64,000 bases of DNA from Desulfohalobiaceae bacterium S24 (GTDB lineage: Bacteria > Desulfobacterota > Desulfovibrionia > Desulfovibrionales > Desulfothermaceae): contig JAABTT010000002.1 of NCBI GenBank assembly GCA_011389765.1, forward strand, positions 1 through 64,000, given 5' to 3'. A program made the position numbers and the translations under genes. The notes beneath the pieces were generated by a model. It saw only the letters and a program-made list of their open reading frames with translations. It made no database searches and had not been told where the DNA came from. This document shows positions 12,284-28,278 of the stretch, piece after piece (within the stretch, counting starts at the first letter, position 1; the number at the start of each line of letters is the position of its first letter).

Positions 12284-13042
12284 TCAGGTCCGCAGGTAAC
12301 TGGCGCCGTTCACGTCTAAGACGGTGCCGGTGGTGAACTCGGATCCGTCGGCGGCCAGAAACAGAACCGCGAAGGCCACCTCTTCGGGGCGGGCCACCCG
12401 TTCAAGGGGACTTTGTTGCCGAATCTGGTCGCCTGCCGGTCCCGAAAGCCTGTCCGTGGTCATATCCGTTTCCACAAAGCCCGGAGCGACCACCCCGACA
12501 AAGATATTGTCTTTGGCCAGTTTAAGGGCCAGGGACTGGCTCAGGGCGTTGAGCCCGGCCTTGCTGGCGCCGTAGGCCGGCTGGTCCGGTTCGCCCCGGA
12601 AAGCGCCCCGGGAGGACACATTGACGATACGCCCACCGCCGTTGTTTTTCATAAAGCGAGCCGCACAGTAGATGACATTGGCCGGTCCCTGCAGGTTCAC
12701 CCGCAGGGTGTGCTCCCAGGCCTGTCTCCATTGCTCGTAGTCGACGCGGTCAATAGGATGCTGCTTGGAGATGCCGGCGTTGTTGACCACAATGTCCAGC
12801 CCGCCGAGTTGGTCCACCGCCTGGTCGATCAGGTACTTGGCAGTTTCAGGCTCGGCAACATCGGCCTGAATCAGGGAGTGCGGTCCCCCGGGCAGTTCTT
12901 CCAGTGTCCTGCGGGCCATTTCCCTGTCCTGCCTGTAGCCGACGGCAACCCTGGCCCCACGCTCGGCAAAGGCCAGAGCACAAGCTCTGCCGATGCCGCG
13001 GGTTCCTCCGGTTATACATACCCGTTTGTTTGAAAAATTCAT
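12284..13042 (-). CDS. SDR-family oxidoreductase (FabG-like)
   Basis: A 252-residue classical short-chain dehydrogenase. TGGTRGIGRACALAFAERGA binds NAD(P), NNAG is present (VVNNAGISKQ), the catalytic Ser lies in VNVSSRG, and YGASK supplies the catalytic Tyr and Lys. It probably reduces a 3-oxoacyl group or oxidises a small alcohol; the substrate is open. The ATG at 13042 is chosen because AGGAGA lies six bases upstream, although the frame is open to 13159. It follows the putative selenoprotein gene by 73 bases on the same strand and is likely co-transcribed. Confidence 0.9.
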   Translation of the reverse strand: MNFSNKRVCITGGTRGIGRACALAFAERGARVAVGYRQDREMARRTLEELPGGPHSLIQADVAEPETAKYLIDQAVDQLGGLDIVVNNAGISKQHPIDRVDYEQWRQAWEHTLRVNLQGPANVIYCAARFMKNNGGGRIVNVSSRGAFRGEPDQPAYGASKAGLNALSQSLALKLAKDNIFVGVVAPGFVETDMTTDRLSGPAGDQIRQQSPLERVARPEEVAFAVLFLAADGSEFTTGTVLDVNGASYLRT

Positions 13043-13115
13043 AGAGTTCTCCTGGCCTTTGTCAAAAGATTGATGTGAGCTCGATTCTCGAATAAGCTGC
13101 GGACCGGCGCCATCT

Positions 13116-13925
13116 TCATTCGTCCGGGTCCGGTTTCTTCCAGCGGTAGGGCAGATCAAGCACGCTGCCGGGCTCGCTCATGCTCTGAAACGCTTTCAGC
13201 CCGTCCCTGATTATCCGGCGCTGCCGCGCCGTGTTTCCGGGCTCGCCGAACATGCAGCCCCGGGGGAACTTCACAAGCAGGGCCCGCGTCGGCCTGGCGT
13301 AGACCATTCGATCCGGCATGTTGCCCATGGATATGCTCGGAATGCCCGCCGACTCCACCACCCGTTGGATCAGACCGACCGTCTGATGACATTTCGGTCA
13401 GACGGGCACCGCAAACAGGGCGGTGACCTCCTCCTGCCTGAGCTTTTCCACGAGCAGGGGCAGGCTTTCTTCCACCAGGGGCACCACGTCGTTCACATAG
13501 CTGAAGCTGTAATGAGTATCGGCCAGCGCCCCGATGGCCCCTTCCCCTTCCAGTTCGACAAAGCGGTGGATCGGAAAGATGGTGTTGATGTCCTCTTCGG
13601 CCAGGCTGTGATCGTAGTGGGCATGGGCGATCCCCACATCTTCCTGCCGGACGGTTTTGGGAAGTTCCCTGAAGCTCGCATCCCCGTGAATGGATTCCGT
13701 ATCAAAAGCCGACTGACTGTCTTTCAGATACAGACCTCCGGAGCTCACCAGCGCGAATTTGTGGTCCTTTGCCTCTCCCAGGTAGGGGGTCCAGGGAACG
13801 TCCGGGTAGCTGACAAACGGGTAGTTGCGCACGATGCGATCCATCTTATGCGCCTTGAACTCTTCCAGACTGTCCTCGACCCAGGCCTGATATTTCTGTT
13901 GAAACTCCTGTAAAATGGGATCCAC
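13116..13925 (-). CDS. GrdB/PrdB-like selenoprotein (in-frame UGA, Sec176)
   Basis: The frame is interrupted only by TGA at 13398-13400. Reading it as selenocysteine gives a continuous 269-residue protein of the glycine/sarcosine/betaine/D-proline reductase selenoprotein B family. The first part has FALVSSGGLYLKDSQSAFD and AHAHYDHS; across the stop it reads VPV-U-PKCHQTVGLIQRV, then VESAGIPSISMGN, RPTRALLVKFP and FGEPGN. U-P-K-C makes a UxxC redox pair where relatives have Cys. Ten bases after the UGA, the mRNA folds into a perfect 7-bp hairpin (plus-strand 13369-13387) with loop GGUCG, close to the GGUC loop of E. coli fdhF. The GTG start at 13925 has AAGGAG at six bases. Nonsense mutation is the alternative, but sequence remains family-like beyond it. 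Confidence 0.85.
13369..13387 (-). promoter_or_regulatory. SECIS-like hairpin
   Basis: In the mRNA sense, AUCAGAC pairs with GUCUGAU around the five-base loop GGUCG; a short CCG/CGG pairing can extend the stem below. The loop begins 17 bases after the UGA, within the spacing usual for bacterial SECIS elements, and carries the G-G-U-C that SelB reads in E. coli fdhF. Confidence 0.75.
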
Positions 13926-14028
13926 AGCAGACTCCTTTCGTTTTTGTTCTATTATCCGATCGTCGCTTTCCTTCAAAAAGGATAGCATAGCCTCCCTCGG
14001 GATACTCGTCAAACCAGCAACATAAGGG
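13918..14028. repeat. duplicated 5' region (copy A)
   Basis: This segment covers the start codon, ribosome site and upstream DNA of the putative selenoprotein gene. It is repeated at 18635-18742 with roughly 80 percent identity by eye, including TTTCGTTTTT, TCTATTATCCGAT and GGATAGCATA, and ending in GCAACATAAG. Confidence 0.75.
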
Positions 14029-14153
14029 CCATTATGTCCTTAGAGCTCCCTCAAAGTACGAAAGTTGAGTTCTTGACTCTTGGTCAAGAATATTTTAAGG
14101 ACTCTTTCTTAATTCTGGTGCGGTGGGCATGTAAAAAAAACCGGAGACACCCT

Positions 14154-15761
14154 GTGAAAATCGATCTGCTCATACAAAATGGAATGATTATCGACGGGAC
14201 CGGCAACCCGGAATACAAGGCCGATGTGGCCTTGGCTGATGACCGGATTGTGGAAGTCGCCCCTAAAATTACAGCCGAAGCACAAACGGTGATCAACGCT
14301 GAAGGCCTTGCAATTAGCCCCGGTTTTATTGATGTCCACAGCCACGATGACGGCTATGTCTTGAACAAACCGAGTTGCGATCCCAAGCTCTTACAAGGCG
14401 TAACTACCCAAGTCATCGGCAATTGCGGATTCAGCCTCGGGCCGCTGCCGGCCGATTCCCAGACCTATCTGGACAAGGTCAAGATGATGATGGGCGGCGG
14501 CGATATGCCGGCCGAACTGCAGAAGGCGAGCAGCTTTGGCGATTATTTGGACGTCCTGGAAAGCAGGCCCTTAGGGGTCAATCTGGTGCCGCTTGTGGGG
14601 CATGCCACAATCCGCATCGCGGCCATGGGCTGGGACAACCGGGCTCCAACCCTCGATGAGCTGGAAGCCATGCAAGGTTTGACCGAGGAGGCGATGAGCG
14701 TCGGAGCAGCAGGCATGTCCTCAGGCCTGATCTATGTCCCGGCTGCTTTCGCTGCGTCTGCGGAGCTGTCAGCTCTGGCTGAAGTTGTCGGCCGCTACCA
14801 AGGACTCTATGCTACCCACATGCGCAGTGAAGGAAACCGGCAGATGGAGGCTATTGAAGAGGCGCTCAATATCGCCAAAGCCGGGAGAACGCCGTTGCAT
14901 ATCGCCCATCACAAGATTGCTGGAAGAGCCAACTGGGGCATGAGTGAGCAGACCCTGGCCAGGTTCGAGCGGGCCCGGGCCGAAGAAGGCCAGGAAGTGA
15001 CCTGTGATCAATACCCTTACCTGGCCGGCAGTTCCTATCTGGCCGCCTGTCTGCCGCCGGCCTTTGCCTCAGGGGGACCGGATGTTTGGGGACCTAAGCT
15101 GCAGGATTCAGACGTACGCCGGCAGGTTCAGAACGACATTGAAAACGATGTCGGATTTCCCGGCGACAATCTGATCCGGTCAGGAGGTTTCGAAAATATT
15201 TTTATAAGCTTCACCTCCAAATTCCCGAAATTTTCCGGGCGTTCAATCGCCGATATTGCCGCGGCATCCAGAAAAAGCGCCTACCAGGTTTTTTTTGAAC
15301 TGCTCAGCGCAGAAAAAATGGATATTGGGATGGTGGTCTTCATGATGCAGGATGAGGATGTCCAGAGGATCATGCAACACCGGCTGACCATGATCGGATC
15401 CGACGGTATTCCTTCCCTGACGGGGGGACGATTCCATCCACGCTTTACCGGGACTTTCCCTAGAGTCCTCGGTCGATTTGCCAGGGACAATGGGGTGCTA
15501 TCCCTGCCTGAGGCGGTCCGGAAGATGACATCACTTCCGGCAAACACCTTCCGGCTTACGAGTCGGGGACTGCTCAAGGAGGGTTTTTTTGCGGATCTGG
15601 TGATATTCGATCCCGCGACGGTCATCGACCAGGGGAATTATCAGCATCCTGACCTCCCTCCTTTAGGTATTATCCATGTTATTTGCAACGGCAAACCAGC
15701 GGTGACCTCCGGCGAAATCACGGGCCGGATGTCCGGCAGGCTGCTTCGACGAAACGCATGA
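14154..15761 (+). CDS. N-acyl-D-amino-acid deacylase (D-aminoacylase)
   Basis: 535 residues of the amidohydrolase superfamily. The metal-binding start GFIDVHSHDDGYVL, the TTQVIGNCGFSLGPL patch, TAHIRS-type helix YATHMRSEGN, HIAHHKIAG, and the late IGSDGIPS aspartate are in D-aminoacylase order. The enzyme hydrolyses N-acyl-D-amino acids (or related D-glutamate/aspartate derivatives). The open frame starts at 14034, but the GTG at 14154 has GGAG at eight bases and gives the typical N terminus MKIDLLIQNGMIIDGTG. It is divergent from the selenoprotein gene and is followed by TRAP genes on the same strand. Confidence 0.92.
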   Translation: MKIDLLIQNGMIIDGTGNPEYKADVALADDRIVEVAPKITAEAQTVINAEGLAISPGFIDVHSHDDGYVLNKPSCDPKLLQGVTTQVIGNCGFSLGPLPADSQTYLDKVKMMMGGGDMPAELQKASSFGDYLDVLESRPLGVNLVPLVGHATIRIAAMGWDNRAPTLDELEAMQGLTEEAMSVGAAGMSSGLIYVPAAFAASAELSALAEVVGRYQGLYATHMRSEGNRQMEAIEEALNIAKAGRTPLHIAHHKIAGRANWGMSEQTLARFERARAEEGQEVTCDQYPYLAGSSYLAACLPPAFASGGPDVWGPKLQDSDVRRQVQNDIENDVGFPGDNLIRSGGFENIFISFTSKFPKFSGRSIADIAAASRKSAYQVFFELLSAEKMDIGMVVFMMQDEDVQRIMQHRLTMIGSDGIPSLTGGRFHPRFTGTFPRVLGRFARDNGVLSLPEAVRKMTSLPANTFRLTSRGLLKEGFFADLVIFDPATVIDQGNYQHPDLPPLGIIHVICNGKPAVTSGEITGRMSGRLLRRNA

Positions 15762-20732: not shown

Positions 20733-21521
20733 ATGGCACCTGCTAACCGGGAGGATTCGGTCAAGGCCATCGAAGTTATCGATCTCCACAAATCCTTTGA
20801 TTCAGATGAAGTGCTCAAAGGGGTCTCCCTGGAGGCCCGTCAGGGTGAAGTCATCGCCATCATCGGGGGAAGCGGATCCGGGAAATCAACCTTACTGCGC
20901 TGCATCAATATGCTGGAGACGCCCAGCAGCGGAACGATCAAGGTGAACGGTGAAGCGATCGAGATGAAAAGCGACGGCAGGGGGGGACAAAAGCCGGCCA
21001 ACCGGCAGCAGGTCAGACGCATACGAACCCGCCTGGCCATGGTCTTCCAGAACTTTAATCTCTGGCAGCACATGAACCTTCTGGATAATGTCATTGAAGT
21101 CCCTATCCACGTCCTGGGCCGGAGTAGGGCGGAAGCCCTGGAATATGCAGACACCCTGCTCAAGCGTGTCGGGCTGTCCGAAAAGCGGGCGGCCTATCCT
21201 GCCTTTCTTTCGGGCGGCCAGCAGCAGCGGGCCGCCATCGCCCGGGCCCTGGCGATCCAGCCGGAGGTTCTGCTTTTTGACGAACCCACGTCTGCACTTG
21301 ATCCGGAACTGATCGGCGAAGTCCTCTCGGTCATCGGCGATTTAGCCCGGGAAGGACGAACCATGATCCTGGTCACCCATGAGATGAAATTTGCCCGGGA
21401 TGTGGCTGATACGATTATTTTTCTGAACGAGGGCATTATCGAAGAGGAGGGGGACCCCAAGGCATTGTTCGATGCACCGAAATCGGAGAATTTAAAACGG
21501 TTTATCAGTTCGGTTACCTGA
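20733..21521 (+). CDS. polar amino acid-type ABC transporter, ATP-binding protein
   Basis: 262 residues with Walker A GGSGSGKST, the Q-loop region, signature LSGGQQQRAAIARAL, Walker B VLLFDEPTSALDP and the switch histidine in LVTHEMKFARDVAD. The closest family is HisP/GlnQ/OccP. It energises uptake with the binding protein and two permeases that follow on the same strand. The neighbouring methyltransferase genes suggest a methylated amine or betaine-like amino acid as cargo; this is inferred. The ribosome site is weak; an AGGAGG 26 bases earlier lies in a short hairpin. Confidence 0.93.
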   Translation: MAPANREDSVKAIEVIDLHKSFDSDEVLKGVSLEARQGEVIAIIGGSGSGKSTLLRCINMLETPSSGTIKVNGEAIEMKSDGRGGQKPANRQQVRRIRTRLAMVFQNFNLWQHMNLLDNVIEVPIHVLGRSRAEALEYADTLLKRVGLSEKRAAYPAFLSGGQQQRAAIARALAIQPEVLLFDEPTSALDPELIGEVLSVIGDLAREGRTMILVTHEMKFARDVADTIIFLNEGIIEEEGDPKALFDAPKSENLKRFISSVT

Positions 21522-21562
21522 ACAGGCATATTTTCCGCAAACCCTTAAAAAAGGAGATGAAC

Positions 21563-22339
21563 ATGGCTAAGGTATTGAAGAAACTGTTCCTGGTTCTCGC
21601 AGTAACGGCCTTGTGCACGACCCTGGCCCATGCCGAGAAGGTGCGCGTGGGTATTGCCGCAGAGCCCTATCCCCCTTTTTACACCCCTGATGCCTCCGGG
21701 GATTGGAGCGGCTGGGAAATCGACATCATCAGGGCTGTCTGCGATGCGGCCGACCTGGACTGCGAACTGGCTCCCACCGCCTGGGACGGCATCATTCCTT
21801 CCCTGAAATCGAAAAAGATCGACATGATCATGGGGTCCATGTCCATTACCAAAGAGCGTCAGAAGCAAATCGATTTTTCCAACAAGTATTACAAGACCCC
21901 GACGATCATTGTCGGCACCAAGCGGCTTGATTTCAAGCCCACACCCGAGGGCCTGGAAGGCAAAATTCTCGGAGTGCAGCGGGCCACCGTCCATGCCGCC
22001 TATGCGCATAAGCATTTTCAAGGGGCCACGATCAAGGAATATCAGACCCAGGACGAGATCAACCAGGATCTGATTTCCGGTCGTATCGACGCCACCCAGG
22101 CCGACGCCCTCGCCCTTGAGAGATTTCTAAAGACAGAGGCGGGGCAGTCCTGCTGCGAACTCAAGGGCAAGGTGGCCGATGATCCGGCAGTGCTGGGCAA
22201 AGGTATCGGCGTGGGCCTGCGCAAGGAGGATGATGAGCTGAAAGCCAGAATCAACAAGGCCATCAAGACCATCCGCGACAACGGTACATACGATGCCATT
22301 ACCCAAAAGTACTTTGACTTTGACATTTACGGCGAATAA
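21563..22339 (+). CDS. ABC transporter substrate-binding protein (SBP family 3)
   Basis: 258 residues. A signal peptide (KKLFLVLAVTALCTTLAHA) precedes the mature start EKVRVGIAAEPYPPFYTPD, then GWEIDIIRAVCDAADLDCE and PSLKSKKIDMIMGSMSITKE, the family 3 fingerprint; RTATVHA-like text appears as QRATVHAAYA. It binds the ligand in the periplasm. AAGGAG stands six bases before the ATG at 21563; an earlier ATG at 21557 is too close to it. Confidence 0.93.
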   Translation: MAKVLKKLFLVLAVTALCTTLAHAEKVRVGIAAEPYPPFYTPDASGDWSGWEIDIIRAVCDAADLDCELAPTAWDGIIPSLKSKKIDMIMGSMSITKERQKQIDFSNKYYKTPTIIVGTKRLDFKPTPEGLEGKILGVQRATVHAAYAHKHFQGATIKEYQTQDEINQDLISGRIDATQADALALERFLKTEAGQSCCELKGKVADDPAVLGKGIGVGLRKEDDELKARINKAIKTIRDNGTYDAITQKYFDFDIYGE

Positions 22340-22425
22340 CGCGCAGTTGAAGAGGGGGCCCCAGTACGGCCCCCTATTTCTTTTTCCCAGGCCGGTCTCT
22401 GGGAAAGCCCGGTTTGGAGCAGCCT

Positions 22426-23142
22426 GTGTTTATCGATAAACTGGAACTTCTTGCCTTGACCCCCCCGGGGTGGGGGAGCGTCCTGCTGCACGGCCTGGCC
22501 AATTCTCTGGCCGTGGCCGGGGGCGGCTATTGCCTGGGTCTGCTTATCGGCATATTCGGCGCCTTTGGCAAGCTCTACGGCGGACCGGTCATCCGCGATC
22601 TCCTGGCCTGCTATACGACCATTATCCGGGCCGTGCCCGAGCTGGTGCTGATTGTCCTTTTGTTCTATGCAGGTTCGGATATCGTGAACCATGTTCTGCA
22701 GGCCTTTGGAGCCTCTCCAGTGGACATCAACGGCATGGCGGCCGGTATCGGGGTGATCGGCATCGTCCAGGGCGCCTATTCCACTGAAGTCCTGCGGGGC
22801 GCCATCAAGGCCATTCCCCCCGGACAGATCGAGGCTGGACGGTCCTATGGAATGGATCCCCTTCTGCTGCTGCGCCATATCACCCTGCCGGCAATGCTGC
22901 CCTATGCCATCCCCGGGCTGTCCAATCTCTGGTTGATCGCGACCAAAGACACCGCCTTGCTGGCAGTGGTCGGGTTTACGGAACTGACCATGGCCACCCG
23001 CCAGGCAGGCGCGGCTACCAGGGAATACTTCCTGTTCTTTATTGCGGGGGGGCTGCTCTATCTGGCGGTGACTCTGCTGTCCAATGCAGGGATTCGAATT
23101 CTTGAGCGAAAGGCCTCTGTCGGCCTGCCGGATGTGGGGTAG
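22426..23142 (+). CDS. ABC transporter permease (HisQ type)
   Basis: About 238 residues, five membrane segments. The EAA-type loop is YSTEVLRGAIKAIPPGQIEA followed by GRSYGMDPLLLLRHITLPA. GTG at 22426 has GGAG at six bases; a TTG at 22414 is the alternative. It forms the membrane channel with the next gene. Confidence 0.9.
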   Translation: MFIDKLELLALTPPGWGSVLLHGLANSLAVAGGGYCLGLLIGIFGAFGKLYGGPVIRDLLACYTTIIRAVPELVLIVLLFYAGSDIVNHVLQAFGASPVDINGMAAGIGVIGIVQGAYSTEVLRGAIKAIPPGQIEAGRSYGMDPLLLLRHITLPAMLPYAIPGLSNLWLIATKDTALLAVVGFTELTMATRQAGAATREYFLFFIAGGLLYLAVTLLSNAGIRILERKASVGLPDVG

Positions 23143-23145
23143 CGC

Positions 23146-23916
23146 ATGAACATTTGGCTGAAACCGCACCGTATCGTACTGCTGCTCATGGCCCTGGCTC
23201 TGGTGGTCTATGCCGGCCTCAGCATGCAATGGGACTGGGTTCCCAGGTATTCCGGCCTCCTGCTGCACGGCATATGGATGACCATTGCCCTGCTGATTAC
23301 CACCTGTGCTTTGGGATTTCTGCTTGCCGTCCCCTTAGGCCTTTTTCAGGTGACCGGGCCCAAACCTCTGGCCTTTGCCTGCAGAGGCTTTTGTACGGCC
23401 ATTCGGGGAACGCCGCTGCTGCTGCAGCTCTGGTTGATTTACTTCGGTCTCGGATCCCTTTTTCCGCAATTTCCTGAAATCATGGATTCGTTTCTTTGGC
23501 CCTACCTGCGCCAGGCCTGGCCCTATGCCCTGCTGTCCCTCACCCTGTCCTTTGCCGGGTATGAAGGCGAGGTCATGCGGGGCGCTTTTGCCGGAGTCCC
23601 CGCCGGGGAACTCGAGGCGGCACATGCCTACGGAATGAAGCGTATGACCGTGCTGCGCCGTATCTGGCTGCCCCGGGCCATCCTGCGCGCTCTACCCACG
23701 CTCAACGGGGAAGTTGTCCTGCAGTTGAAGTCGACGCCGCTTGTGGCCACCATTACAGTGGTTGAATCCTATGCCGTGACCTCAACGATCCGGCAGGAAA
23801 CCTTCATCATCTATGAGCCACTCTTGTTGATTTCCCTGATCTATATGGTCTTGACCGCCATCTCTGTGGTTATTTTTTCCTATTTTGAAAAGAAGGTGCC
23901 TGTCCACGACGTATAG
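23146..23916 (+). CDS. ABC transporter permease (HisM type)
   Basis: 256 residues, about five membrane segments, EAA-type loop YEGEVMRGAFAGVPAGELEA followed by AHAYGMKRMTVLRRIWLPRA. It starts three bases after the HisQ-type gene ends. It completes the transporter. Downstream, 23917-24066 has a CACTCACTCACTTACTCA run and no gene. Confidence 0.92.
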   Translation: MNIWLKPHRIVLLLMALALVVYAGLSMQWDWVPRYSGLLLHGIWMTIALLITTCALGFLLAVPLGLFQVTGPKPLAFACRGFCTAIRGTPLLLQLWLIYFGLGSLFPQFPEIMDSFLWPYLRQAWPYALLSLTLSFAGYEGEVMRGAFAGVPAGELEAAHAYGMKRMTVLRRIWLPRAILRALPTLNGEVVLQLKSTPLVATITVVESYAVTSTIRQETFIIYEPLLLISLIYMVLTAISVVIFSYFEKKVPVHDV

Positions 23917-24066: not shown

Positions 24067-25554
24067 TCAGACCTTGAGTTCCTTTTCCGTTTCCAAAATG
24101 ATGCGCTGAATATCCTTTTGGGCCTGTTCGCTTAAGGGCTCGGGTAGATGCTTTTCCAGCACTGTTTTCGCCTGTTTCAGGGCCCGTTCATGAAGGGTGG
24201 CTGCTCCTTTGGCTTCCCAGCTTGCGTGGCTTTCGCGGTTCATCAGTGCGGGGACCATGGCGTCGGCACAATGCTCAAGCGTACTGGAATGGGTGAGATA
24301 CTCCCCGGTTTGGCCCACCTCCTTGATAAGATCCACCGAGAGGGTCTCCGGATTGACCTGCATCCCCTGAAGCACGTGTTTGATGCTCCGGTTGATTTCG
24401 TTGTCCATGACCAGCTTGCCGTAATCCAGGGCCATCCCGCTGTCCACCATGCCTGTTCCGTAAATCAGATCGGCGCCTGCCAATGCTGCCGGAAGGGCGG
24501 TGAGCAGTGATTCGTAGCCGGCCTGGGCGTCGCAGAGTTTGGAGTCAACCTAGCCGCCGGAGACCCTTACCGGGATATTATAGTATTTGCCCATTTGGGC
24601 CAGGGCGGCGTTGAGCAGCGCTCCCTCGGGAGAGCCCACTGCGGCCGTGCCGAAGCGCATGTCCATGGTGGTGGTTGAACTGGAATAAAACATGGGCGCA
24701 CCGGGCTTCACCAGCTGGCCCAGGGTCAGTCCGCTGAGAACCTCGGCATTGTGCTGGACCACTGTTCCGGCCAGGTGGACCGGTGCGGTGCCTCCGGCCA
24801 GGCACATGGACAGGACGCTGGTGGTGAACCCCTGCTCCACCGCTGCCATGAGAACCTCGCTGCAGTCATCAACCATCTTCAGGGGGCTGACCAGACAGAC
24901 CCCGGTAAAAAAGAAGGGACGTTCCCGAAAGGCCTCCCTTCCCACGGCTGCTTCACCCATCAAGGCCATTTTCGGAATCAGATCGGCTGTGGGCGGGATG
25001 GCTTCCACGGGTTTTGTGGTATTGGCCATCATGGCCGCCAGGGTGTGCAGGGTCTCGGTGACTGGCGATTTGTCCGTGGCATTGAGCATGGAAATCAAAA
25101 TGCTGAGACTGTCCAGGGTGTCCATGATCCGGGTGACCTGAACAACATCGTCCAGAAGCGCCTTTCTCCGTTCACCGCTGGAGAGGTCGTTGACATAGAC
25201 CGTGCTCCCGAAGTTGACAAAACCGAGGTTGTCACCCCCCATCAGGTAATCCCGATCCGGGGTTCGCCCGGGAATGATCAGGTTGGAGGGGATGGAGGAC
25301 AGGCCCTTTTCGATGAGTGACTGGGGAAGATAGACCCGGCTGGAGGCTTTGTCTACCGTGGCTCCGTGGTCGGAAAATACCGTCTTGGCCTTGTCGCTGG
25401 TAACCAGGATGCCGGTTTCCTGCAGAATCTCCAGACTGGCCTGATGAATTTTTTCGCAATCTTCCCGGGAAAGACCTGCCAAGCCCAAAGTGCCCGGCGG
25501 TCCGAGATGGATCGGCCCTCTGTCGGCAGCGCGGGCTGCCTGTTCGTTCAGCAT
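24067..25554 (-). CDS. mttB: MttB-type trimethylamine methyltransferase, in-frame UAG (Pyl335)
   Basis: The frame is continuous apart from one TAG at 24550-24552. Read as pyrrolysine it gives 495 residues, the length of methanogen MttB, with the amber at codon 335 (334 in Methanosarcina barkeri). Just before it stands PVRVSGG, just after it VDSKLCDAQAGYESLL, and the C-terminal half (LIYGTGMVDSGMALDYGKLV, NPETLSVDLIKEVG, GEYLTHSSTLEH) is typical MttB. The enzyme transfers a methyl group from trimethylamine or a related amine to a corrinoid protein. AAGGAGG lies before the ATG, and a leader hairpin and a TGTATACA operator lie upstream. No pyl genes or corrinoid protein are in the window. Confidence 0.9.
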
Positions 25555-25934: not shown

Positions 25935-26594
25935 TCACAGGGATATGTAGTCTTCGGGAAGCACGGGGATTTCCATGCTCTCATAGCTGCTCAGCATGTG
26001 GAGTTCCATGGCTTTTTCCGCAGCATCCGGATCTTTGGCCTGCAGGGCCTCAATCACCTTCTGGTGCTCTTTGATGGATGGGTTCAGGGGCGTGGTCTGA
26101 AAGGGATCGTACAGGATGAGATAGATTTTGGTTCGATTGAGCAGTTCTTCGATGTAGCGGCGCAGGACCGTGTTGCCCGAGACTTGTGCGATGAGCAGGT
26201 GAATGGCATCATTGATGCGGTGGAATTCTTCTATGTCCCGGTTTTCAAAGGTCTGGATCTCTTCATGGCAGTAGTGCTGCAGCTCCTGTATCTGTTCGGG
26301 GGAGATGGTCTCCGTGGCCAGGCGGGCGGCTGTCTTTTCCAGCTGCTGCCGCACAAAAAAGGTTTCCTTGATTTCCTGCAGGGTCGGCTTGATAACACAG
26401 GTCCCTTTATTGGCTTCATAAACGGCAAATCCATCATAGGTCAAACGCCGGATCGCTCCGCGTATGGGAGTCCGGCTGACTTGCATCTGCTTGGCCAGGG
26501 TTGTTTCCACAAGCTTGGTTCCCTGTTTGATATATCCTTTGATAATGGCGTTTTTCAGTCTTTGATAAATATAACTTTCGCTGCTTTGTTCCAT
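25935..26594 (-). CDS. GntR-family (FCD) regulator of the methylamine block
   Basis: 219 residues: winged HTH at about residues 10-70 (IIKGYIKQGTKLVETTLAKQ, VSRTPIRGAIRRL, ANKGTCVI) and an FCD domain (FFVRQQLEKTAARLA, FHRINDAIHLLIAQVSGN, EHQKVIEAL). It lies between the two mttB-type genes, divergent from the second. Three TGTATACA-cored palindromes before the ABC and mttB-type genes are its likely operators; binding is inferred from position and pattern. Confidence 0.9.
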   Translation of the reverse strand: MEQSSESYIYQRLKNAIIKGYIKQGTKLVETTLAKQMQVSRTPIRGAIRRLTYDGFAVYEANKGTCVIKPTLQEIKETFFVRQQLEKTAARLATETISPEQIQELQHYCHEEIQTFENRDIEEFHRINDAIHLLIAQVSGNTVLRRYIEELLNRTKIYLILYDPFQTTPLNPSIKEHQKVIEALQAKDPDAAEKAMELHMLSSYESMEIPVLPEDYISL

Positions 26595-26838: not shown

Positions 26839-28278
26839 ATGATCGTGCCAAGCTACCAGGTGCTCAGTTCTGAGCAGGTTCGGGCCGTCCATGCAAAAAG
26901 CCTGGAACTTCTCGAAAACACGGGTTTTTCTGTGCCCCATGAGCGGGCTCTGAACCTTCTGGCCCAAAAAGGGGCCAAGGTGGATTTCAGTTCCCGGCGG
27001 GTGTGTTTTCCACCGGATCTGGTGGAAAAAGTCCTTGAAGATGTCCCCAGAGAATTCACATGCGCCGGCAGAGATCCGGCCTTTGATTTGACAGTGGGCT
27101 TTGATGCCCCGCCTGTGTGCCGCAGTACAGGAGGAGCGGTCAACCTGTTCGATTTCATCAGCCAGGAGAGCCGGCCGGTCACCCTCCAGGACTGCCGGGA
27201 GCTCGCGCAACTCATCGACGGTTTGGAGAATACGGCTGTTGCCGCAGTGCAGACCCCCTGCGACGCCCCGCTGCCGGTTTACGATATCCACGCGCTCAAG
27301 GCCATGCTCGAATCCGGACGGAAACATATCTGGGCCCTGGTCACGAGTTCTGCAAATCTTGCCTACCAGATTGAAATGATGCTCGCTGTGGCCGGATCTG
27401 CCGAAGCCTTGCGGCAGCGTCCCGTCTGTCACGGCATTGTCACCGTGCTGGAGCAGTTCAGGTTCCCCATGGACGAGATCGAACGTCTGCTGCTTTACGG
27501 GCGCTATTCAATCCCGGTCAAGGTACCCATTGTGCCGATGATGGGCACTGTGGCGCCCATAACCATCTTGGGCACTCTGGTCCAGGCCAATGCCGAGGCC
27601 ATCGGCAGTGCCGTTTTGATCCAGCTTTTATGCCCGGGCACCCCCACCTGGTATTATTTTTTCATCCAGGCTATGGATAAAAAGACCGGGGGGACGATCT
27701 TCATGAACCCGGAGATCATGCTCTGTTCCCTGGGCCTCATCCAGATGGCGCGTCATTACAGGCTGCCGGCGGCCCCGTCCTCCTTCGAGACCAATGGATC
27801 CAGGCTCACGGATATCCTGTACAACAACGGTTCGGCGGTCACCCTCTTTGCCTTGGCCGGGGCCTTTGAACATGCGTCCACCGGGTGTGTGGACATGTCC
27901 ATGGGAATCAGCAAACAGGGGCTGGTCATCGGCGATGATATCTGGGGCCAGACCAAACGACTGCTGGCCGGCTTTCAGACTGAAGAGGAGGCCTTTGCCT
28001 CGGAGGCCATCAAGCGGGTGGCCCTGGGCAGCGGACAGTTCTTGACCGATGAGCACACAGGGCAGTTTGTCCGCAAAGAGGCCCAGTACGTTCCCCGGAT
28101 TTTGTCCTATCAAACCCATACCGAGTGGGCGCAGAATCCCAGACATCTGGCTGAAGAAGCCCAGGAGCGGGTCAAAGACCTGCTTGAGAGGCATGAGGTG
28201 CCCCCGCTTGATCCGGCATTGCAGCTGGAGTTGAATCGGATTGCCGCTGCCGCGGAAAAGAAGGCGGGCTGCAGGTAG
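26839..28278 (+). CDS. MttB-family methyltransferase without pyrrolysine
   Basis: 479 residues with no in-frame stop, from the ATG at 26839 (AGGAGG at seven bases). MttB-superfamily text includes LELLENTGFSVPHERALNLL, GGAVNLFDF, PIVPMMGTVAPITILGTLVQ and ALGSGQFL. At the place where MttB carries pyrrolysine it has an ordinary stretch (SSFETNGSRLTD). Such members (for example MtgB) demethylate quaternary amines such as glycine betaine. It shares its leader hairpin and operator with the UAG-containing paralogue and is divergent from the GntR gene. The substrate is not known. Confidence 0.88.
   Translation: MIVPSYQVLSSEQVRAVHAKSLELLENTGFSVPHERALNLLAQKGAKVDFSSRRVCFPPDLVEKVLEDVPREFTCAGRDPAFDLTVGFDAPPVCRSTGGAVNLFDFISQESRPVTLQDCRELAQLIDGLENTAVAAVQTPCDAPLPVYDIHALKAMLESGRKHIWALVTSSANLAYQIEMMLAVAGSAEALRQRPVCHGIVTVLEQFRFPMDEIERLLLYGRYSIPVKVPIVPMMGTVAPITILGTLVQANAEAIGSAVLIQLLCPGTPTWYYFFIQAMDKKTGGTIFMNPEIMLCSLGLIQMARHYRLPAAPSSFETNGSRLTDILYNNGSAVTLFALAGAFEHASTGCVDMSMGISKQGLVIGDDIWGQTKRLLAGFQTEEEAFASEAIKRVALGSGQFLTDEHTGQFVRKEAQYVPRILSYQTHTEWAQNPRHLAEEAQERVKDLLERHEVPPLDPALQLELNRIAAAAEKKAGCR

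Follow-up and report, generated by a model that had tools for sequence, protein, structure and literature searches.

A divergent mttB-type gene with an in-frame UAG codon at the pyrrolysine position in Desulfohalobiaceae bacterium S24, and the pyrrolysine genes of its host

The UAG-containing mttB gene and its surroundings

The window analysed here, i.e. the whole 64,000-nucleotide stretch of contig JAABTT010000002.1 (assembly GCA_011389765.1), carries on its reverse strand an MttB-family gene with one in-frame UAG codon (Table 1). An amino-acid-type ABC importer (20733-23916) converges on this gene and a regulator gene lies directly upstream, followed by a divergently oriented gene for a second MttB-superfamily protein, which scored 289.9 bits with TIGR02369 (cut-off 525) and falls outside the pyrrolysine (Pyl) clade. 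An intact mttC is not adjacent to the UAG-containing gene, and a local search of the window did not reveal one.

Table 1. Features of the window and, where a contig or locus handle is given, of other parts of the source genome
Feature	Location	Strand	Basis or remark
ABC transporter ATPase	20733..21521	+	PF00005
Family-3 extracellular solute-binding protein, polar amino acid type	21557..22339	+	PF00497
ABC permease of the same set	22414..23142	+	Position (between solute-binding protein and second permease) and sequence
ABC permease, convergent with mttB	23146..23916	+	PF00528
mttB, predicted trimethylamine:corrinoid methyltransferase, UAG putatively read as pyrrolysine	24067..25554	-	495 codons; translation, PF06253 324.5 bits
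Rfam PYLIS_3 match	24453..24552	-	63.9 bits
Putative pyrrolysine codon, UAG codon 335	24550..24552	-	Aligns with residue 334 (X = Pyl) of 7xcl
Transcriptional regulator of the GntR/FCD family, immediately 5' of mttB	25935..26594	-	PF00392, PF07729
Second MttB-superfamily protein, Glu in Pyl column, divergent to the regulator	26839..28278	+	PF06253 243 bits
pylSc, pyrrolysyl-tRNA synthetase catalytic part	C23:3028-3870		TIGR02367 323 bits, cut-off 178
pylB	C75:24665-25699		474 bits, cut-off 348
tRNA-Pyl, anticodon CUA	L025:14025-14099, contig C75		Canonical
His-type MttB beside pylB	L025:10801-12279, contig C75	-	TIGR02369 573 bits, above cut-off
Two tandem mtbB (dimethylamine methyltransferase)	L038:11371-12786 and 13024-14463, contig C80	+	UAG at codons 356 and 365

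Translated with TAG as pyrrolysine (O), the frame from 25554 to 24067 gives 495 residues with O335 at its single internal stop; a Shine-Dalgarno-like AAGGAGG lies ahead of the ATG and a TGA at 24069-24067 terminates the gene. A sequence-only reading of this DNA had described a 495-codon frame with UAG at codon 335, and its coordinates agree with our translation, to which we add the strand (reverse) that it left unstated. The G+C content at third codon positions is 0.72 before and 0.68 after the UAG. Standard ORF calling breaks the gene in two, an ORF of 334 aa and a fragment of 138 aa. Read through at full length, the product scored 553.4 bits with TIGR02369, for which the curated equivalog cut-off is 525.

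The product can be aligned end to end with MttB of Methanosarcina barkeri (7xcm/7xcl), and the UAG falls on residue 334 of that solved enzyme, which bears out the earlier assignment of this codon to the Pyl334 site of Methanosarcina MttB. In M. barkeri MttB, Gly110, Thr111, Met249 and Tyr364 are active-site residues with roles in the enzyme (PMC9842639). Gly110, Met249 and Tyr364 (M. barkeri numbering) are identical in the window protein, and the non-Pyl paralogues do not have the full set; Thr111 is replaced by Ser, in a column that is variable among UAG-type relatives. The two enzymes thus belong to the same family and share the position of Pyl (7xcl/7xcm/7xcn; PMC9842639), with a sequence match of 278 bits, but the identity is only about 33% before and about 36% after the Pyl codon. 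They differ also in their hosts: the gene described here belongs to a bacterium of the sulfate-reducer type, in which tetrahydrofolate probably takes the place of coenzyme M as methyl acceptor. The glycine betaine methyltransferases of the MtgB type (9yce, 2qne) are of the same superfamily (about 465 aligned residues, 235 bits) but are without pyrrolysine, whereas the window gene, which carries the Pyl codon, falls outside the MtgB clade.

We rejected the PYLIS_3 match as proof of recoding because the His-type MttB beside pylB, which is without UAG, also scores 56.9 bits; the match is read here as sequence similarity within the family and not as a proven insertion signal.

Elsewhere in the window, a GrdB-like ORF (PF07355; 14012..13116, reverse strand) is interrupted by a UGA at 13400-13398 in a UxxC context (LFAVPV-UGA-PKCHQTVGLIQRVVE) with 93 more codons open, and a tRNA-Sec was predicted in the genome (C46, L194:1116-1205; 80 bits). 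The ORF probably encodes a selenoprotein, and these would be signs of combined Sec and Pyl recoding in the lineage, a combination already known from marine Deltaproteobacteria.

UAG-type paralogues and the MttB family tree

The source genome (G000; a 94% complete draft of 3.5 Mb in 137 contigs) has 22 MttB-family matches. Exactly one in-frame TAG was detected in 6/22, and since the six TAG codons all share the alignment column of codon 335 the UAG in the window is not a matter of chance. Two further matches were flagged with TAA; here the codon lies at the extreme start, upstream of the family-like sequence, and we therefore consider both to be ordinary members.

Compared with 43 other UAG-type MttBs, the window protein shows an identity after the UAG that is about equal to or above that before it, e.g. 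49% after and 41% before relative to its closest paralogue in the same genome (L013), in line with the earlier description of the downstream half as fully family-like. In a maximum-likelihood tree with 81 rows the UAG type is confined to a single 49-row clade, in which 44 rows have UAG, with 100/100 support, and the window gene is placed inside it; in the alignment TAG occupies the Pyl column in all UAG-type relatives. Within the clade the window gene forms a long separate branch with no more than 43% identity to any other full-length row compared, and no orthologue was seen in the genomes of the same genus.

In-frame UAG codons were also found in the tandem mtbB pair on contig C80, where both UAGs occupy the family's pyrrolysine position and the O356 product scores 487 bits with TIGR02368 (cut-off 369). 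A UAG mttB is located upstream of the pair and an mttC, cut off by the contig end, downstream. MtbB (TIGR02368) is, like MttB, a Pyl-dependent methylamine methyltransferase, represented here by two UAG-containing copies, but it constitutes a separate sequence family.

In addition, the Pyl-MttB clade includes a supported subclade in which His (CAC) or Ala is present at the pyrrolysine column in genes located beside pyl genes; relatives of the His-type member on C75 are found at L100 (13214..11784) and L103 (12330..10927). As a fourth case, Sporomusa sp. KB1 (L145) has Trp (TGG, one base off TAG) at this column. To judge from these sequences, Pyl has apparently been given up in the His, Ala and Trp members while the host still encodes it.

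Decoding and biosynthesis genes in the genome, the genus and the order

The earlier reading named a lack of pylS and pylT as evidence against recoding, and suggested a search for pylS, pylT and pylBCD. Neither of the two is lacking, so that this condition does not speak against recoding: the genome encodes both PylSc and a tRNA-Pyl with anticodon CUA, together with pylB, while pylC and pylD were not found. The best PDB match of PylSc is the split bacterial PylRS of the D. hafniense type (3dsq/2zni, 312 bits). The predicted fold of the tRNA-Pyl is stable and compact (z -3.8), and the differences from the tRNA-Pyl of two genomes of the same genus are limited to the D-arm region.

Profile searches, in which contig-end fragments were checked in selected stretches, gave no match above cut-off for pylC or pylD in the draft genome; pylSn was absent among the matches, and TIGR03912 (PylS N-terminal domain) found nothing. 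With a joined PylC/PylD/PylSn profile, the source genome and a second genome of the genus (G056, 85% complete) gave short stretches only, which by their position in the profile are of ATP-grasp and Rossmann type; pylC, pylD and pylSn were likewise not found in G056. A third genome of the genus, G057, has pylC and pylD beside pylT/mttC and pylSn after pylD. Specifically, its 7.9-kb contig carries pylB-pylSc and then, divergently, ald-pylT-mttC-thioesterase-pylC-pylD, beyond which pylSn is cut off by the contig end.

In the source genome, the 5.6-kb contig with pylSc (C23) stops 73 codons into a copy of ald. Moreover, contig ends break within mttC at residue 57 (C75 and C80) and at residue 171 (C23 and C122) in loci L025, L038, L031 and L040, probably because there are two mttC copies with a near-identical middle part that the assembler failed to resolve. 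Because G057 has the missing genes and C23 ends inside the neighbouring ald, an assembly gap is the likeliest reason for the missing pylC, pylD and pylSn. Real loss is possible, given that G056 is also without matches, and two of the three genomes of the genus have kept pylT, pylSc, pylB and UAG methyltransferases with no pylC, pylD or pylSn seen. We consider it improbable that the lineage has kept the pyrrolysine reading of UAG but lost the ability to make the amino acid by itself; if it has, these genomes would need pyrrolysine or a precursor from outside, and their synthetase would work without the N-terminal subunit.

Two further observations concern the arrangement of these genes. On contig C71 of G056 (L068:9765-10452) the thioesterase-pylC-pylD segment known from G057 is replaced 3' of mttC by other sequence that extends to the contig end, and in another genome (L069, G070:C50:13000-24500) the two halves of PylC are separated by roughly 80-100 residues inserted in frame.

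PylS is encoded by 10 of the 348 genomes of the order. For a co-occurrence test we searched for the window MttB in 24 related genomes, 10 with and 14 without PylS. TAG-containing matches were all in PylS-positive genomes and none in PylS-negative ones; the 14 PylS-negative genomes gave no match at all or only stop-free matches. In species-representative genomes, a scan with an alignment of six proteins yielded 418 pylS-like stretches (a single PylS protein as query gave no relatives), and among the best 80 of these 418 Desulfobacterota and Bacillota are prominent. Bacterial Pyl use had been called rare; in view of the 418 pylS-like loci and of its documentation in marine Deltaproteobacteria this sounds rarer than warranted, and we soften the wording without dropping it.

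Alternative readings and predicted function

Could the UAG be a real stop, leaving a decaying paralogue or a truncated 334-aa protein? UAG does serve as an ordinary terminator here, closing roughly 18 of about 119 long ORFs when the recoded genes are left aside, and termination may for this reason compete with read-through; moreover, the branch of the gene is long, and the genomes of its genus yielded no orthologue. Yet the frame has a single stop, of the right kind and at the one functional codon, it is followed by 160 further open codons conserved as well as the upstream part, the decoding tRNA and the synthetase are encoded in the genome, and five paralogues have the same codon in the same column. 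The conservation after the UAG and these paralogues lead us to reject a pseudogene or truncated product, and a genuine stop is highly improbable. Still less credible is suppression of the UAG by another amino acid through a near-cognate or other suppressor tRNA: no supporting evidence was found (the 42 tRNAs from the general model were not individually screened for a CUA anticodon), and the genome has a canonical tRNA-Pyl and PylSc, with the UAG occupying the column of the catalytic Pyl.

A Pyl enzyme acting on a substrate other than trimethylamine, such as another methylamine or a quaternary amine imported by the neighbouring ABC transporter, deserves more weight, even if we regard it as unlikely. 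The depth and isolation of the lineage (at most 43% identity to other full-length members compared), the change of Thr111 to Ser and a setting consisting of an amino-acid-type importer, a GntR regulator and a non-Pyl MttB with no adjoining mttC would all fit such a role. On the other hand, the protein passes the TMA-specific equivalog model and has kept the catalytic set Gly, Met, Pyl and Tyr, and similar neighbours have been reported around a TMA methyltransferase (PMC8318568).

Taken together, the position of the UAG at Pyl334, the tRNA, synthetase and PylB genes, the co-occurrence with PylS, the conservation on both sides of the codon and the active-site residues argue that the window gene almost certainly encodes a genuine pyrrolysine-containing MttB, with TMA:corrinoid methyl transfer as the function predicted from its sequence. 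The proposal that the amber codon is read as pyrrolysine is supported by pylSc, pylB and tRNA-Pyl(CUA) in the same genome; the incorporation of Pyl itself is inferred, as are the substrate, the methyl acceptor and the existence of pylC, pylD and pylSn outside the draft.

In M. barkeri MttB trimethylamine is taken up at the pyrroline imine carbon, with Tyr364 assisting via water, and the corrinoid of MttC then receives the methyl group (PMC9842639); for deltaproteobacteria tetrahydrofolate and the Wood-Ljungdahl pathway have been proposed as the onward acceptor (PMC8318568). In the window gene, tRNA-Pyl(CUA), charged by PylSc with PylSn, would read codon 335, and the pyrroline imine carbon would bind trimethylamine or a close methylamine. 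The bound methyl group would be presented to the Co(I) corrinoid protein MttC and, in the bacterium, probably be transferred onward to tetrahydrofolate.

A 2021 publication on marine Deltaproteobacteria (PMC8318568) has described Sec and Pyl being used together, including a TMA methyltransferase with UAG. The bbl-31 enzyme described there shares with the present case the recoding, the broad host group and the joint presence of Pyl and Sec machinery, and its neighbourhood is similar, with a lysine-arginine-ornithine periplasmic binding protein, transporter genes, a regulator and a non-Pyl methyltransferase. Judged by its description it is distinct, with Pyl at 327 of 485 residues compared with 335 of 495 here, and our genome differs in having six UAG-mttB paralogues and two MtbB. 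The phenomenon is solid but already documented in this bacterial group, and the window gene, otherwise ordinary among bacteria that use Pyl, is new only as a divergent paralogue of this lineage.

Automatic annotation breaks up UAG genes of this kind and labels their products as truncated. Finally, our data add to the bacterial pyrrolysine users a Desulfohalobiaceae-like genus in which at least eight genes for methylamine methyltransferases contain UAG, and among these the deep-branching MttB of the window is one whose substrate would be worth testing.
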